Shown here in pieces: positions 3 through 4,632 of a stretch of 64,000 nt of DNA. Position 1 is the stretch's first letter, and each line of letters starts with the position of its first letter. The position numbers and the translations under genes were made by a program. Source of the DNA: Nevskia sp. (lineage in GTDB: Bacteria; Pseudomonadota; Gammaproteobacteria; Nevskiales; Nevskiaceae); assembly GCA_019689635.1 (NCBI GenBank), contig JADGHB010000014.1, positions 1 to 64,000 on the forward strand. Direction: 5' to 3'. The notes under the pieces were generated by a model. That model was given only the letters and a program-made list of their open reading frames with translations, searched no databases and had not been told where the DNA came from.

Positions 3-110
3 CTGTGGAATCCCGCCATCCGCCATTCCGCACAGGCCCTCGCCGAACTCGACCCCGCCCACTACGCCAAACGCGAACAGAACGAGGGGGTGTATGAAAC
101 TCTGCGTTAA
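3..110 (+). CDS. C-terminal end of an unidentified protein (partial)
   Basis: The frame beginning at base 3 is open from the window edge to a TAA at 108-110. Its codons carry G or C in the third position as the real genes here do, and it reads as a charged tail ending in YETLR. Its last 17 bases overlap the next gene, an arrangement usual for coupled genes. Only 35 residues are visible, so no function can be given. By position it is probably the first visible member of the Exb/TonB-like cluster. The other two frames upstream of base 94 look less coding-like. Confidence 0.55.
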   Translation: MWNPAIRHSAQALAELDPAHYAKREQNEGVYETLR

Positions 111-765
111 GACCGCGCTGGGCGGCTTGCTGGCTGCCCTGCTGGCCGCCTGTGCGGCACGAGGTCCCGCGCACGTTCCGGCCGCCGGAGCCGAGACCGC
201 GAGGGCCGCAGGCACTCAGTCGCAGGCCGCGCCGAACGACGACGCCGAGCAACGGTTCCAGGCCGCTCTGGAGTTGATGAAGAACAACAAATCGGACGAC
301 GCGCGCGCGGCATTCGCTGCCCTGGCCAAGGATTACCCGCAGTATTCGGGCCCGCTGGCCGATCTCGGCGTGCTCTATGCGCGCGGCAACCAGCGCCAGC
401 AAGCGCTCGACAGTTTCGCCGCCGCCGTCGCCGCCAACCCCAAGAATGCTTTTGCCTACGGCTGGCTCGGCATTCTCTACCGAGAAAATGGAGATTACGC
501 GCGCGCCGAGGACGCTTACCGCAAAGCGCTGGCGCTCAACCCCAACGACGCCACCACTCATCTCAATCTGGGCATCCTGTATGACGCTTATCTCAAACGT
601 CCGCAGGAGGCCTTGACACACTATCGGGAGTACCAGCGGCTGAGCGGAGACCAAGCACGGCCCATCGTGGCCGCCTGGATCAGAGAACTGCAAGATCAGC
701 TGGGTGGCGGCGCGTCGCCAGCGACTCCCGCCGTCGACGCACCCGGCATGGAGCACAAGCCATGA
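94..765 (+). CDS. TPR-repeat lipoprotein of the Exb/TonB-like cluster
   Basis: A 223-residue protein. The N-terminus is a lipoprotein signal: short basic start, Leu/Ala-rich stretch and lipobox LAAC with the lipidated Cys at residue 20. A spacer rich in Ala and Pro follows (21-50), then about four tetratricopeptide repeats (roughly 51-86, 87-118, 119-152, 153-186) with the usual Gly/Tyr/Ala/Pro positions. It probably sits on the inner face of the outer membrane or on the periplasmic side and binds partner proteins. Its stop overlaps the next start by 4 bases (ATGA), so it is likely translated together with the ExbB/ExbD/TonB-like genes that follow. The lipoprotein and TPR calls are firm; the role in the system is inference. 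Confidence 0.85.
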   Translation: MKLCVKTALGGLLAALLAACAARGPAHVPAAGAETARAAGTQSQAAPNDDAEQRFQAALELMKNNKSDDARAAFAALAKDYPQYSGPLADLGVLYARGNQRQQALDSFAAAVAANPKNAFAYGWLGILYRENGDYARAEDAYRKALALNPNDATTHLNLGILYDAYLKRPQEALTHYREYQRLSGDQARPIVAAWIRELQDQLGGGASPATPAVDAPGMEHKP

Positions 766-1112
766 CATGGTTATCATCATCGCGCATACTTGCCGTGCTG
801 TTGGCGGTCACGGCAAGCGTGGCGGCACAAGAGCCGGGCGGAACGCCGCCCTCCGAATCGTCTCCGGCGTCGCCTGCGGCGACTACGGTGGACGAAGCGC
901 CCGGTACCGTGATCATCGGCGACCGCGAATCGCCGATCGGTCTGTACCTGACGCCGTGGAAGGACGAGTACGCCGCCCGCAATGCCGGACGTCCGGCGCA
1001 GCACTTGCTGGAGAGTATGGAGCCCATAGACCCGGAAGCATTCCATCGCCAGAACACCTACTACGACGTCATTACCGCTTATCGCCGCGCCGAGCTTGCC
1101 CAGCACCGATGA
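762..1112 (+). CDS. Small secreted protein of unknown function in the Exb/TonB-like cluster
   Basis: A 116-residue protein starting in a 4-base overlap with the TPR lipoprotein. Residues 1-22 look like a cleavable signal peptide ending in VAAQ. A Pro/Ser/Ala-rich linker (about 23-45) leads to a compact region with the notable string GDRESPIGLYLTPWKDEY, then a tail with a YYDVITAYRRAEL segment. There is no membrane segment beyond the signal and no cysteine pair. I do not recognise a named family. Its fixed place between a TPR lipoprotein and an ExbB-like channel suggests a periplasmic accessory subunit of that machine; this is inference. Confidence 0.75.
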   Translation: MTWLSSSRILAVLLAVTASVAAQEPGGTPPSESSPASPAATTVDEAPGTVIIGDRESPIGLYLTPWKDEYAARNAGRPAQHLLESMEPIDPEAFHRQNTYYDVITAYRRAELAQHR

Positions 1113-1167
1113 ATCCTTCGTCCGTCGCCATCGAGATTCACAACCGAACCGTTTGAGAGGAACTGCC

Positions 1168-1800
1168 ATGGAGCTTTTCGACCTCGTCGCCCGCAACTTC
1201 CAGGCCGGCGGCGCTTTCATGTATCCGATCCTGGTGGTGCTGGTGCTCGGCTTGACGATCGCCATCGAGCGCTACACCTACCTGCGCCGTGCCTACCGTG
1301 AGAACCGCAGCCTGTGGTCCAAGCTGCTGCCGCTGGTCAACGCCGGCCGTTACGAGGAGGCGGAAAAGCTCGCCGCGAACTCTTCCACCGCCGTGGGGCG
1401 CGTGCTCGGCTACGGCATTTCTCGCGCTCGCGGTCAAGCGCGGCGTGAAGAGGTCGAGCGCGCCATGGAGGAAAGCCTCATGGAGGTCACGCCGCTGCTG
1501 GAGCGGCGCACGCACTACCTGGCCACGTTCGCCAACGTCGCCACGCTGCTCGGCCTGCTCGGCACCATCATCGGCCTGATCCACGGGTTTTCGGCGCTGT
1601 CCGGCATCAATCCCGCCGAAAAACAGGACCAGCTCTCCGAAGCGGTGGCGATCGCGATGAACTGCACCGCCTTCGGCCTGTTGGTGGCCGTGCCCTTCAC
1701 CCTGATCCACGCCTGGCTGCAATCCATGACCGACGAGCTGGTCGACAATCTCGAAATGGCCTCGGTGAAATTCCTCAACAGCCTCGGCCTCCAGGGCTGA
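1168..1800 (+). CDS. MotA/TolQ/ExbB-family proton channel subunit
   Basis: A 210-residue inner-membrane protein of the ExbB/TolQ family. The start at 1168 is chosen because a GAGAGG ribosome site lies 7 bases upstream and the reading then opens directly with the family's N-terminal amphipathic helix and first membrane span; an upstream in-frame ATG at 1096 would add unrelated residues. Three hydrophobic segments are visible, at about 18-38, 107-130 (with TLLGLLGTIIGLIHGF) and 150-175, with the large cytoplasmic loop between the first two. With ExbD-like partners it should form a proton-driven stator that energises an envelope-spanning protein. It is not assigned to TolQ or ExbB proper because the neighbours differ from both classic operons. 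Confidence 0.9.
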   Translation: MELFDLVARNFQAGGAFMYPILVVLVLGLTIAIERYTYLRRAYRENRSLWSKLLPLVNAGRYEEAEKLAANSSTAVGRVLGYGISRARGQARREEVERAMEESLMEVTPLLERRTHYLATFANVATLLGLLGTIIGLIHGFSALSGINPAEKQDQLSEAVAIAMNCTAFGLLVAVPFTLIHAWLQSMTDELVDNLEMASVKFLNSLGLQG

Positions 1801-1832
1801 GGCCCAGCGCCGCATCCACCGGGGAAGCCGCC

Positions 1833-2363
1833 ATGGCACACGGACTGTCGCGCGAGCTGCGGCGCACCGTCAGGCGCGCTCGCCGCCGACGTGCCGCCGA
1901 GCTCAACATCGTCAACATGGTGGACGTGCTCACGGTGCTGATCTTCTTCCTGCTGGTCAACGCCACCGGTGTGTCCATCCTCGGGATCAACCTGCCTTCG
2001 GCCGACACGCCGCCTCCCGCGCAGCCGCCGCGGGCATTGACCGTGATCGTGCGCCAGAGCGGACTCACCGTTGCCGACCGCGGCGGTGCGATCCAGCAAT
2101 TCCCCGCCGCGGCCGACGGCAGTTACGATCTGCACGGCCTCGGCACGCTGCTGTCCCAGATCAAGGATCGCGCGCCCGACGAAGACAAGATCACCCTGCT
2201 GCTCGAGCCGGGCGTTTCTTACGACACGCTGGTGCAGGTGATGGATACCGTGCGCCTCGACCCGGGCGGCAACGGCAAGCCACAGCGCGAACTGTTCCCG
2301 CAGATTTCCATGGGCGACGCTCCCGCAGTGCCAGCGCCAGCCACGGCTGGAGGCTCGCCGTGA
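1833..2363 (+). CDS. ExbD/TolR-family protein 1
   Basis: A 176-residue protein with a strongly basic cytoplasmic N-terminus (residues 1-25), then LNIVNMVDVLTVLIFFLLV, the single membrane span of the ExbD family with its essential Asp at the start of the helix, and a periplasmic domain. A GGGGAAG ribosome site precedes the ATG. The tail is rich in Pro and Ala. It should pair with the ExbB-like channel to carry protons. It is one of two adjacent, clearly different ExbD-like genes; the stop overlaps the GTG of the second (GTGA). Confidence 0.88.
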   Translation: MAHGLSRELRRTVRRARRRRAAELNIVNMVDVLTVLIFFLLVNATGVSILGINLPSADTPPPAQPPRALTVIVRQSGLTVADRGGAIQQFPAAADGSYDLHGLGTLLSQIKDRAPDEDKITLLLEPGVSYDTLVQVMDTVRLDPGGNGKPQRELFPQISMGDAPAVPAPATAGGSP

Positions 2364-2875
2364 TCCTGCGTTCGAGTTTCATGCGCCAGCGCCTGCTGCG
2401 CAAATCGATCAAGCGCGAGGTCGTCGCGCTCAACCTGGTGTCAATGATCGACATCTTCACTACTTTAGTGTTCTTCCTGCTGCTGACCTCCACCAGCGTA
2501 CAGACGCTGCGCAGCCCGCGTTCGCTGACCCTGCCGATGTCGTTGTCCTCACAGACGCCGAACGACACGCCGGTGCTGATGATCACGGGTGATGCGATTC
2601 TTCTCCAGGGCCAGCCGGTGATGACGGTGGCGGAGGCGCAAGCCACCCCCGGCGACGTGCTGGCTCCGCTCAAGTCGCAACTGCTGCTGGTGCCGCTGGC
2701 GAAGATCGAGGGCCAAGCCAATGGCGCGCTGACGCGTGGCGAGATCAACATCATGGCGGACAAGCAGATCCCCTACGCCCTGCTGAAGAAAGTGATGCGC
2801 ACCTGTGGCGAGGCGCAGTTCGCGCGCATTTCGCTGTCGGTCAACCATCGCGGAATCCGGAGCGAGGGATCGTGA
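2360..2875 (+). CDS. ExbD/TolR-family protein 2
   Basis: A 171-residue protein opening at a GTG that overlaps the previous stop; an in-frame ATG at 2381 is the other possible start. The basic stretch KRE is followed by ALNLVSMIDIFTTLVFFLLL, the membrane helix with the conserved Asp. The periplasmic part ends in a region resembling the ExbD swap domain (PYALLKKVMRTCGEAQF). It diverges from ExbD 1 mainly in the periplasmic domain, which suggests a heteromeric stator rather than a recent duplication. The stop overlaps the next GTG by 4 bases. Confidence 0.88.
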   Translation: MILRSSFMRQRLLRKSIKREVVALNLVSMIDIFTTLVFFLLLTSTSVQTLRSPRSLTLPMSLSSQTPNDTPVLMITGDAILLQGQPVMTVAEAQATPGDVLAPLKSQLLLVPLAKIEGQANGALTRGEINIMADKQIPYALLKKVMRTCGEAQFARISLSVNHRGIRSEGS

Positions 2876-3819
2876 GCGCCGAGCGCGTCATTCGTTGGGA
2901 GTCCTGGGCGCTGGCGGAAGAAGCGGACCGCCGCTTCCGGCGCATCGTCGCGGCTTGCGCGGTGCCCGCGCTGGTGCTGGCGCTCGTGCTGTCGTTGGTG
3001 AAATTTGAAATCGCCACGCCTCCCGCCGGCAATTACCAGCCGCAACGTTACGTCGAACTGCTGCCACAACAACCGGCAGGCGTGCCCGCCCAGCAGCCGG
3101 AGCAGCCCAAGCCGGCGCCCAAGAATCAGGAACAGCCGCCGCAAAAAGCGGCGCCGGCCAAGCCCGAGCTGAAACCGGTGGTCAAGCCTCAAGAAAGCGC
3201 TCGCGAAGTGGCGCAGAAAACCCAGCAGATGCGCCTGATCCAGGATCAGCTCGCCGATCTGCGCGATCAGAAACTTTCGGCGCTCAACGATCAGCCCCTG
3301 ATCGCCAGCACGCTCAGCTCCAAGGGCGGCGTGGGCGCTTCGGAGCTGGCTTCGAACCTGGCCGCGTCGGCTGCCAATGCCAGCAGTGGTCTCGGCGGTC
3401 TGGGCCATGCGAGCGTCACCTCGCAACAGAGCGGAACCGGTCTGGGCGAGCGCCGCACCGGCGTCGTGCACAGCAAGCTCGGCACGGGCGGTGGCGAGCG
3501 CGTGGGCGGCAACGGCCGTGGGGCGGGTCGCACGCTCGAGGAAATCCAGGAAGTGTTCGACCGCAACAAGGGTTCCTTCAATGCGATCTACAACCGCGCG
3601 ATGCGCAGCAATGCCAACATCGCCGACGGCAAGATCGTCGTGAAACTCACCATCGCGCCGGACGGCACGGTGACCGAGTGTACCCTGGTGCACAGCACCT
3701 TCAACGATCCGGACTTCGAAAGGAAGGTCATCGCCCGCATCGAGCTGCTGCGCTTCCCTCCCAAGGCGGTGCCGCCCTTCACGCTGTCCAGTTATCCTAT
3801 CGAATTCCACCCGATGTAA
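2872..3819 (+). CDS. TonB-like energy transducer with AgmX/PglI-type C-terminal domain
   Basis: A 315-residue protein. Residues about 27-45 form one membrane span near the N-terminus; residues 55-110 are a Pro/Gln/Lys-rich periplasmic linker typical of TonB and TolA. A Gly/Ser-rich stretch follows, and the last 100 residues (EEIQEVFDRNKGSFNAIYNRA through TLSSYPIEFHPM) match the C-terminal domain known from AgmX/PglI-type proteins of gliding and TonB-like systems, including KIVVKLTIAPDGTVTEC. It probably converts stator motion into work at the outer membrane. GTG start in a 4-base overlap with ExbD 2. The family call is good; the transported cargo or function is unknown. Confidence 0.82.
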   Translation: MSAERVIRWESWALAEEADRRFRRIVAACAVPALVLALVLSLVKFEIATPPAGNYQPQRYVELLPQQPAGVPAQQPEQPKPAPKNQEQPPQKAAPAKPELKPVVKPQESAREVAQKTQQMRLIQDQLADLRDQKLSALNDQPLIASTLSSKGGVGASELASNLAASAANASSGLGGLGHASVTSQQSGTGLGERRTGVVHSKLGTGGGERVGGNGRGAGRTLEEIQEVFDRNKGSFNAIYNRAMRSNANIADGKIVVKLTIAPDGTVTECTLVHSTFNDPDFERKVIARIELLRFPPKAVPPFTLSSYPIEFHPM

Positions 3820-3840: not shown

Positions 3841-4632
3841 ATGGGTTTCCTAAACGGGAAAAAAGCCTTGATCACCGGCGTGGCCAGCGAGCGCTCCATC
3901 GCCACCGGCATCGCCGAAGCCTTCCACCGCGAAGGTGCGGAGCTGGCCTTCACCTATCAGGGAGACAAGCTCAAGCCGCGCGTCGAGGACCTGGCCCACA
4001 GCCTGAACTCCACGATCGTGCTCCCGCTGGACGTCACCCGTGACGTCGAGATCGACGCGGTCTTCGAAACCTTGAAGGAAAAATGGGGGGCACTCGACAT
4101 CCTGGTGCACTCGATCGGCTACGCGCCGCGCGAGCTGCTCGCCGGCTCCTATCTCGACACGGTCACGCGCCAAGGTTATGCCATCGCGCACGACATCAGC
4201 GCCTATTCGTTCGCGGCGCTGGCCAAGGGGGCACGTCCGCTGATGCGCGACCGCAAAGGCGCGCTCTTGACCCTGACCTATCTCGGCTCCCAGCGCTTCG
4301 TGCCGATGTACAACGTGATGGGGGCGGCCAAGGCCAGCCTGGAGGCCAACGTGCGCTATCTCGCCGCCGAGCTCGGACCGCTGAACGTGCGCGTCAACGC
4401 GATCAGCGCGGGGCCGATCAAGACTCTGGCCGCCGCGGGCATCAAAGGCTTCCGCAGCATGCTGGCGTACGCCGAAAAAGGCTCGGCGCTCAAGCGTAAC
4501 GTGACCATCGAAGAAGTCGGCAATGCGGCCGCTTTCCTGTGTTCCGACCTGGCCTCCGGCATCACCGGCGAAATCCTTTACGTGGACGCTGGCTTCAACA
4601 TCATGGGCTTCAGCTTGGAAGGCGCAGAGTAA
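3841..4632 (+). CDS. fabI: Enoyl-[acyl-carrier-protein] reductase (NADH), FabI
   Basis: A 263-residue short-chain reductase that completes each round of fatty-acid elongation by reducing trans-2-enoyl-ACP with NADH. The N-terminal cofactor loop [15 protein letters not shown] is diagnostic of FabI, and the catalytic Y-x6-K pair is visible at Tyr157 and Lys164 (YNVMGAAK), with a further Tyr at 147. Length equals the family norm. It lies 21 bases after the TonB-like gene on the same strand, so it may share that transcript, and it converges on ppiD, as in Pseudomonas. Confidence 0.97.

Follow-up and report, generated by a model that had tools for sequence, protein, structure and literature searches.

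The window analysed here, which runs over 64,000 nucleotides from base 1 to base 64000 of contig C11 in a Nevskia assembly (2.8 Mb in 101 contigs), begins at a contig end, and its opening segment carries a large part of an operon for a putative envelope machine that looks like the Agl-Glt core complex described in gammaproteobacteria and other bacteria. The closest named relatives by exbB gene are Nevskia assemblies. Since the operon is cut at the window start, the window's share consists of six complete genes and the 3' end of a seventh, all on the plus strand. The truncated gene (3..110, frame 3, 35 codons plus stop, LWNPAIRHSAQALAELDPAHYAKREQNEGVYETLR*) is a gltD-like tetratricopeptide repeat (TPR) gene, whose encoded tail resembles the C-termini of gltD-like proteins in loci L017 and L019-L021 and aligns to residues 903-937 of the gltD-like protein of L018. 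It is followed by genes for a gltE-like TPR lipoprotein of 223 residues (94..765; PF13432, 4.9e-18; lipobox LLAAC recognised by eye) and for a small secreted protein of 116 residues, here called SEC (762..1112), which carries the motif G-x-x-E-x-P...P-W and has no Pfam or NCBIfam match. The motor genes encode an ExbB/TolQ/AglR-type subunit of 210 residues (1168..1800; PF01618, MotA_ExbB, 1e-27), for which the ATG at 1168 was chosen as start while the mechanical open reading frame (ORF) opens at TTG 1096, and two AglQ/AglS-type proteins, each with its membrane Asp31 present: ExbD1 (1833..2363; PF02472, 1.4e-14) and ExbD2 (2360..2875; PF02472, 3.7e-16). The last gene encodes a GltG/TonB-like transducer of 315 residues (2872..3819) with an AgmX/PglI C-terminal domain (NF033768, 57.1 bits versus a cut-off of 40). 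The first-pass annotation had named these six genes as a TPR lipoprotein, a secreted protein, one ExbB, two ExbD and an AgmX-type TonB, and the profile searches bear out each of these families except for SEC, which has none. The four overlapping junctions that it had counted among six are also present, namely 17 nt between the gltD tail and gltE (94-110), ATGA (4 nt) between gltE and SEC and GTGA (4 nt each) at ExbD1/ExbD2 and ExbD2/TonB, together with gaps of 55 and 32 nt at SEC/ExbB and ExbB/ExbD1.

The 5' genes of the operon sit on contig C99, beyond an assembly gap. The end of that contig holds, after gloB, a coiled-coil gene (exported product of 187 residues, 52 % identical to its L017 counterpart), a gltC-like gene (605 residues) and the start of a gltD-like gene, the middle of which was found nowhere in the assembly. 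With C99 added, the operon comprises nine genes in the order coiled-coil, gltC, gltD, gltE, SEC, exbB, exbD1, exbD2 and tonB-like, so that the set of six first proposed is correct for the window and too small for the operon. The flanks hold gloB and a methyltransferase gene upstream, and fabI (3841-4632, beginning 21 bases past the tonB-like gene), a PPIase gene and Lon downstream. A cluster of fabI-like reductase ORFs also recurs downstream of the operon in 22 named loci, as a chance neighbour or a read-through gene; the flanking gene clusters were built from mechanical ORFs, antisense ones included.

Gene order is strongly conserved. Among the relatives, which are the best 80 of 256 found in one contig scan, 60 contain gltC-gltD-gltE-SEC-ExbB-ExbD1-ExbD2-TonB complete and in the same order; in the other 20 the set is cut by contig ends (15), has two neighbouring TPR genes in one ORF (4) or, in L083, shows two names swapped through an over-long ORF start. 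From gltC onward the order is identical across all 80 as far as the contigs extend, and a member of the upstream coiled-coil gene cluster was found in 53 named loci. This conservation goes beyond chance, in agreement with the earlier view of a dedicated unit. The single long ORFs join gltD to gltE in L027 and L032 and gltC to gltD in L070 and L073; they may be sequence errors, and if they are not, they would favour physical contact of the encoded proteins.

In their 2011 study, Luciano et al. described a core complex formed by gltC, gltD, gltE, gltG, aglR, aglQ and aglS, whose genes are clustered in one region, with one additional gene, in gammaproteobacteria, Geobacter and others (PMC3169522). 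The operon looks like this gammaproteobacterial form of the Agl-Glt core complex, and hence like a known kind, because composition and clustering agree: one AglR-type and two adjacent AglQ/S-type motor genes (assigned by the families MotA_ExbB and ExbD and by order), three TPR genes within that cluster that are gltC-, gltD- and gltE-like (an assignment made from domains, gene size and gene order rather than from orthology to M. xanthus), and a TonB-like GltG-type transducer whose AgmX/PglI domain scores over its cut-off. Unlike the published cluster with its one additional gene, the operon has two further conserved genes, SEC and the coiled-coil gene, both of which are candidates for the paper's gene without myxobacterial homologue (PMC3169522). 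The kinship to gliding motors suspected in the first-pass annotation is thus supported by composition; its description of a machine of unknown purpose needs dividing, since the function of the core complex was indeed called unknown in the 2011 and 2013 papers (PMC3169522, PMC3858216), but the kind itself had already been reported in 2011 (PMC3169522).

With the classical TonB-ExbB-ExbD and Tol-Pal systems the operon shares the motor family and the TonB/TolA C-terminal fold, and it differs from them in having two dissimilar ExbD genes and no receptor or tolB/pal. A Tol-Pal identity was rejected, as all nine genes are accounted for and neither tolB nor pal is among them, and a TonB2/TtpC-type system was rejected on the single ExbB gene and the lack of a receptor in the operon. 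No receptor gene was seen beside the motor genes among the flanking genes scanned and the part of the C99 ORFs that was scanned; what lies immediately upstream are the gltD-like, gltC-like and coiled-coil genes, and then gloB. The operon therefore is, as first stated, neither a Tol-Pal nor a TonB-ExbB-ExbD-receptor operon.

The alignments used (A1-A4) hold 52, 30, 22 and 26 proteins of relatives, a subset of all. ExbB residues T126, T133, T167 and E106 are invariant in 23/23 aligned rows. The membrane position of ExbD1 is Asn in 62/78 loci and Asp in 16/78, the window also having Asp, and the membrane Asp of ExbD2 is kept in 75/75 readable loci (77 loci, with L074 and L083 not readable). Eleven of the 16 ExbD1-Asp loci belong to Nevskia or Hydrocarboniphaga, the group in which the window falls; the Sinimarinibacterium and Fontimonas loci have Asn. 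An ExbD1 with Asn beside an ExbD2 with Asp constitutes a natural asymmetric ExbD pair. A D28N change in AglQ paralyses the AglRQS motor (Wartel et al., 2013; PMC3858216), and if the Asp is the proton carrier, as that change suggests, only one of the two ExbD proteins would be active in the motor of most loci. We therefore infer one protonatable ExbD of two in most loci and two in Nevskia and its near relatives. No relevant report of an Asp-to-Asn change in ExbD was found in the open-access literature, and the Asn in ExbD1 is new as far as the literature searches reach. A tandem pair of ExbB-type domains, perhaps TtpC/TonB2-like, is encoded separately from the operon at C26:446-1340 of the same genome.

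The structural model of the transducer shows a transmembrane helix (12-42), a Pro-rich linker of low confidence and a C-terminal domain at about 219-315, with block predicted local distance difference test values of 94-98 over residues 221-310. This domain passes the TIGR01352 tonB_Cterm model (29.8 bits versus a cut-off of 27.1) and falls narrowly under that of Pfam TonB_C (24.4 versus 24.6). The first 23 rows of a structure search (Z 8.6-5.2) are taken up by C-terminal domains, those of TonB and TolA and those of FusB and HasB, which are homologues of TonB; the first unrelated chain has Z 5.2. The best Foldseek match has E 1.7e-3 and probability 1.00. Since it resembles the C-terminal domains of TonB and TolA most closely in structure, the AgmX/PglI domain as modelled is a TonB/TolA-fold domain, which corrects the earlier statement that it occurs here instead of the TonB fold. 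The GltG model matches the C-terminal end only (1e-9; 37.5 bits versus a cut-off of 650), and no FHA domain was detected with Pfam, unlike M. xanthus GltG, for which FHA is given in Table 1 of the 2011 paper (PMC3169522). A search of 72,556 plasmid records found no match to this protein.

The similarity of this domain to H. pylori TonB (Z 8.6) and to TonB bound to BtuB (Z 8.5) is what could be expected of a dedicated TonB-type uptake system whose receptor, a classical TonB-dependent one, is encoded at another site. Against such a role, the scanned flanking genes of this genome include no receptor, and the conserved His by which TonB and TolA contact their motors from the transmembrane helix (PMC12204202) has no equivalent here: the helix of the window's transducer contains no His, and any His occurs there in 2/31 rows. 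We regard this explanation as the least probable of those considered.

The gltE-like protein matches the NCBIfam GltE model NF033758 at 9.8e-11 (41.3 bits versus a cut-off of 225), and the MamA and PilW models outscore it. SEC residues G53, P58, P65 and W66 are invariant in the 53 aligned rows. Its model shows an N-terminal signal helix, a C-terminal helix (91-115) and the motif in an extended conformation, with no globular core (predicted template modelling score 0.29), and no relative was detected in Pfam, NCBIfam or solved structures (one structure match, E 0.78); our guess from this model is that SEC might serve as a linear linker or a strand donor. In M. xanthus, GltF is a small exported protein that comes after GltE, and SEC, likewise small, exported and placed after gltE, is a candidate for a divergent GltF.

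Some features of the TPR and motor proteins recall outer-membrane maintenance, in which the motor would pull on TPR lipoproteins and so stabilise the envelope as Tol-Pal does. TolQ is the best match of ExbB both among solved structures and in NCBIfam, and in L018 the gltD-like protein scores above the cut-offs of the YbgF and BamD models. A function of this type is nevertheless quite improbable: besides the lack of tolB/pal among the nine genes, the small gaps in the relatives' eight-gene core leave no room for them (their flanks were not searched), and a patchy spread, with SEC in 85/369 genomes of the class, fits housekeeping poorly.

The distribution of the core suggests a different partner. 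Among the 369 genomes of the class, with the SEC profile standing in for the core, SEC is found in 85 and DUF3570 in 94, and the two occur together in 69 (Fisher 9e-38, counted by genome). Counted by genus, DUF3570 is present in 53/65 SEC genera versus 24/207 others (Fisher 5e-26), and counting by family, for which a total of 180 families was assumed, gives p 4e-15; correction for ancestry does not go beyond the genus count. In at least 35 of the 85 SEC genomes the two genes share a contig and are no more than 30 kb apart, with DUF3570 upstream in 33 of those and on the same strand within 11 kb in 22 of the 35 pairs, these distance results being lower bounds. A divergent DUF3570 subset, characterised by low score and late profile start and defined after the data had been seen, is the more tightly linked, since 53/58 of its carrier genomes have SEC versus 16/36 of the remaining DUF3570 genomes. 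DUF4266 is found in 89/369 genomes of the class. In L151-L153 the genes for TlpA (supported by Pfam in L151 only), DUF4266, DUF3570, coiled-coil, gltC, gltD, gltE, SEC, exbB, exbD1, exbD2 and tonB-like follow one another on one strand, and in the upstream clusters of the named loci ApbE is found in 27, a TlpA-like gene in 29 and DUF3570 in 10 loci, where about 2 kb upstream of gltC is in view and one or two members per cluster were checked against Pfam.

The DUF3570/DUF4266/thioredoxin module was described by Meheust et al. (2021), and one DUF3570 protein was found by experiment to be an ApbE substrate and flavinylated (PMC8238504). The loci in which TlpA-DUF4266-DUF3570 immediately precede the coiled-coil gene and the core are like these flavinylation clusters (PMC8238504); the core-linked DUF3570 subset is unlike them in mostly lacking the flavinylation motif. 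The words ExbB and TPR are absent from the main text of that paper, as are ApbE, flavin and thioredoxin from the main text of the 2011 core-complex paper (PMC3169522), so that a pairing of motor and redox module appears in the searched text of neither. The co-occurrence of SEC with the divergent DUF3570 and the order TlpA-DUF4266-DUF3570-core are new as far as our literature searches reach.

DUF3570 and DUF3034, the latter a family found beside second copies of the core, have no relative among solved structures (best E 0.28). Both show, by eye, aromatic C-terminal residues and signal-peptide-like stretches, and we presume that they are outer-membrane barrels.

These second copies, in relatives of the window, have a recurrent neighbourhood that is equally new within our searches. 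In L155, L156, L157 and L159 the core is adjoined by DUF3034, globin, FMN_bind-like and PepSY genes, and L158 has the same neighbours in the order DUF3034-globin-FMN_bind-PepSY, although the contig begins within its core, at ExbD1. ApbE (Pfam) comes next in L156, L158 and L159 (3/5), while L155 and L157 stop at PepSY. DUF3034 is present in 22/41 relatives, in 14 of which it lies at most 15 kb from a SEC gene on the same contig, and 4/4 inspected FMN_bind-like proteins, one of them from contig C17 of the same genome, contain SGAT. NMT1/NrtA-like genes (L142 and L155 by Pfam, L157 and L159 by phmmer), Rrf2 regulators (L142, L156), ANTAR-like genes recognised by eye and a nitrite-reductase-like gene (L145) also occur near second copies; their recurrence hints at nitrate or nitric-oxide control.

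The first 99 bases of contig C17 are identical to those of the window. There (L101, 1-4058) a second SEC, which shares 43 % identity with that of the window across 82 residues, comes directly after the gltD tail with no gltE, and then DUF3034; globin-like (by eye), FMN_bind-like (with SGAT, under the Pfam cut-off) and PepSY-like (by eye) genes are further members of this contig. Duplication or gene conversion of gltD would account for the common start, and so would an assembly that mixes strains.

Twelve regions around other SEC genes were also inspected. In eight, gltC-gltD-gltE-SEC stands without motor genes in the visible stretch; another two contain a tonB-like gene and no exbB/exbD, and the last two are cut by contig ends. 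All eight genomes with motorless sets, seven from the window's family, taken to be Nevskiaceae, and one from its order, contain a second site with a tonB-like gene and SEC. Such motorless paralogous sets, likewise new as far as the literature searches reach, recall by analogy the shared AglRQS motor, which as a single motor drives both the Glt and the Nfs set of Myxococcus (Wartel et al., 2013; PMC3858216). The likeness to Agl-Glt gliding and Agl-Nfs sporulation is that a single genome holds paralogous sets with and without a motor (PMC3858216); the system described here is known from its genes.

The same likeness could speak for a basal surface-transport machine whose cargo, a polysaccharide or lipid, travels along the outer membrane or through it, just as the Exo polymer is moved by Agl-Nfs in Myxococcus, the redox genes then being mere neighbours. 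Glt and Nfs, both powered by AglRQS, associate with sugar polymers, and the core was proposed as a possible basal transport machinery (PMC3858216); the motorless sets in 8/12 regions resemble Glt and Nfs sharing one motor. On the other hand, no glycosyltransferase or exopolysaccharide gene was recognised by eye in 25 flanking clusters, few of which were run against Pfam, and the co-occurrence with DUF3570 would need another reason. We consider surface transport unlikely, if less so than the Tol-Pal-like role.

The reading that we favour, with modest confidence, is that of a gammaproteobacterial Agl-Glt-type core acting as a transducer, driven by the proton-motive force, that serves an outer-membrane redox protein. 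ExbB and the pair of different ExbD proteins would form the motor, the GltG/TonB-like protein would transmit force across the periplasm, and GltE, GltD, GltC, SEC and the coiled-coil protein would make up a relay at the outer membrane. The client would be an outer-membrane-type protein, DUF3570 or, beside the second copies of the Nevskia relatives, DUF3034, as part of a flavin/thiol redox module (ApbE, FMN_bind, PepSY, TlpA, DUF4266), which the motor might load, gate or recycle during redox-coupled metal or haem uptake, the substrate being a guess. The observations beneath this reading are the content, order and synteny of the genes, their co-occurrence, the conserved residues and the fold of the transducer domain; complex formation, transfer of force, the barrel form of the DUF proteins and the redox client are inferred from them. 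Taken separately, a trans-envelope transducer driven by the proton-motive force is very probable, and a redox client, suggested by gene neighbourhood and co-occurrence, is somewhat better supported than its absence.

Several points weigh against this reading. The kinship to Myxococcus AglRQS/Glt would follow from domain, size and order rather than orthology, and the GltE and GltG model scores are under their cut-offs. The class-wide counts use the SEC profile in place of the core, DUF3570 is absent from 16/85 SEC genomes, including that of the window, and the window copy has no redox neighbour among the scanned flanks (gloB and methyltransferase; fabI and PPIase). The motif [S/T]GA[S/T] is intact in only 1/7 core-linked DUF3570 proteins, and 2/4 FMN_bind-like proteins are under the Pfam cut-off. 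DUF3034 shows no class-wide link, SEC being present in 2/18 DUF3034 genomes, and co-location is not the same as interaction.

Extended beyond this operon, the favoured reading would make the core outside the myxobacteria an engine that runs on protons and serves flavin/thiol redox proteins of the outer membrane, with a mechanical motor coupled to trans-envelope electron transfer, a generalisation that we put forward tentatively and on balance doubt. The gliding motor of Myxococcus is regarded as a descendant of the core complex, and the DUF3570 partner, if true, would be a hint at the job of this motor before it drove movement, while the DUF3570 redox module would, if true, be a new kind of client for the ExbBD/TolQR motor family.

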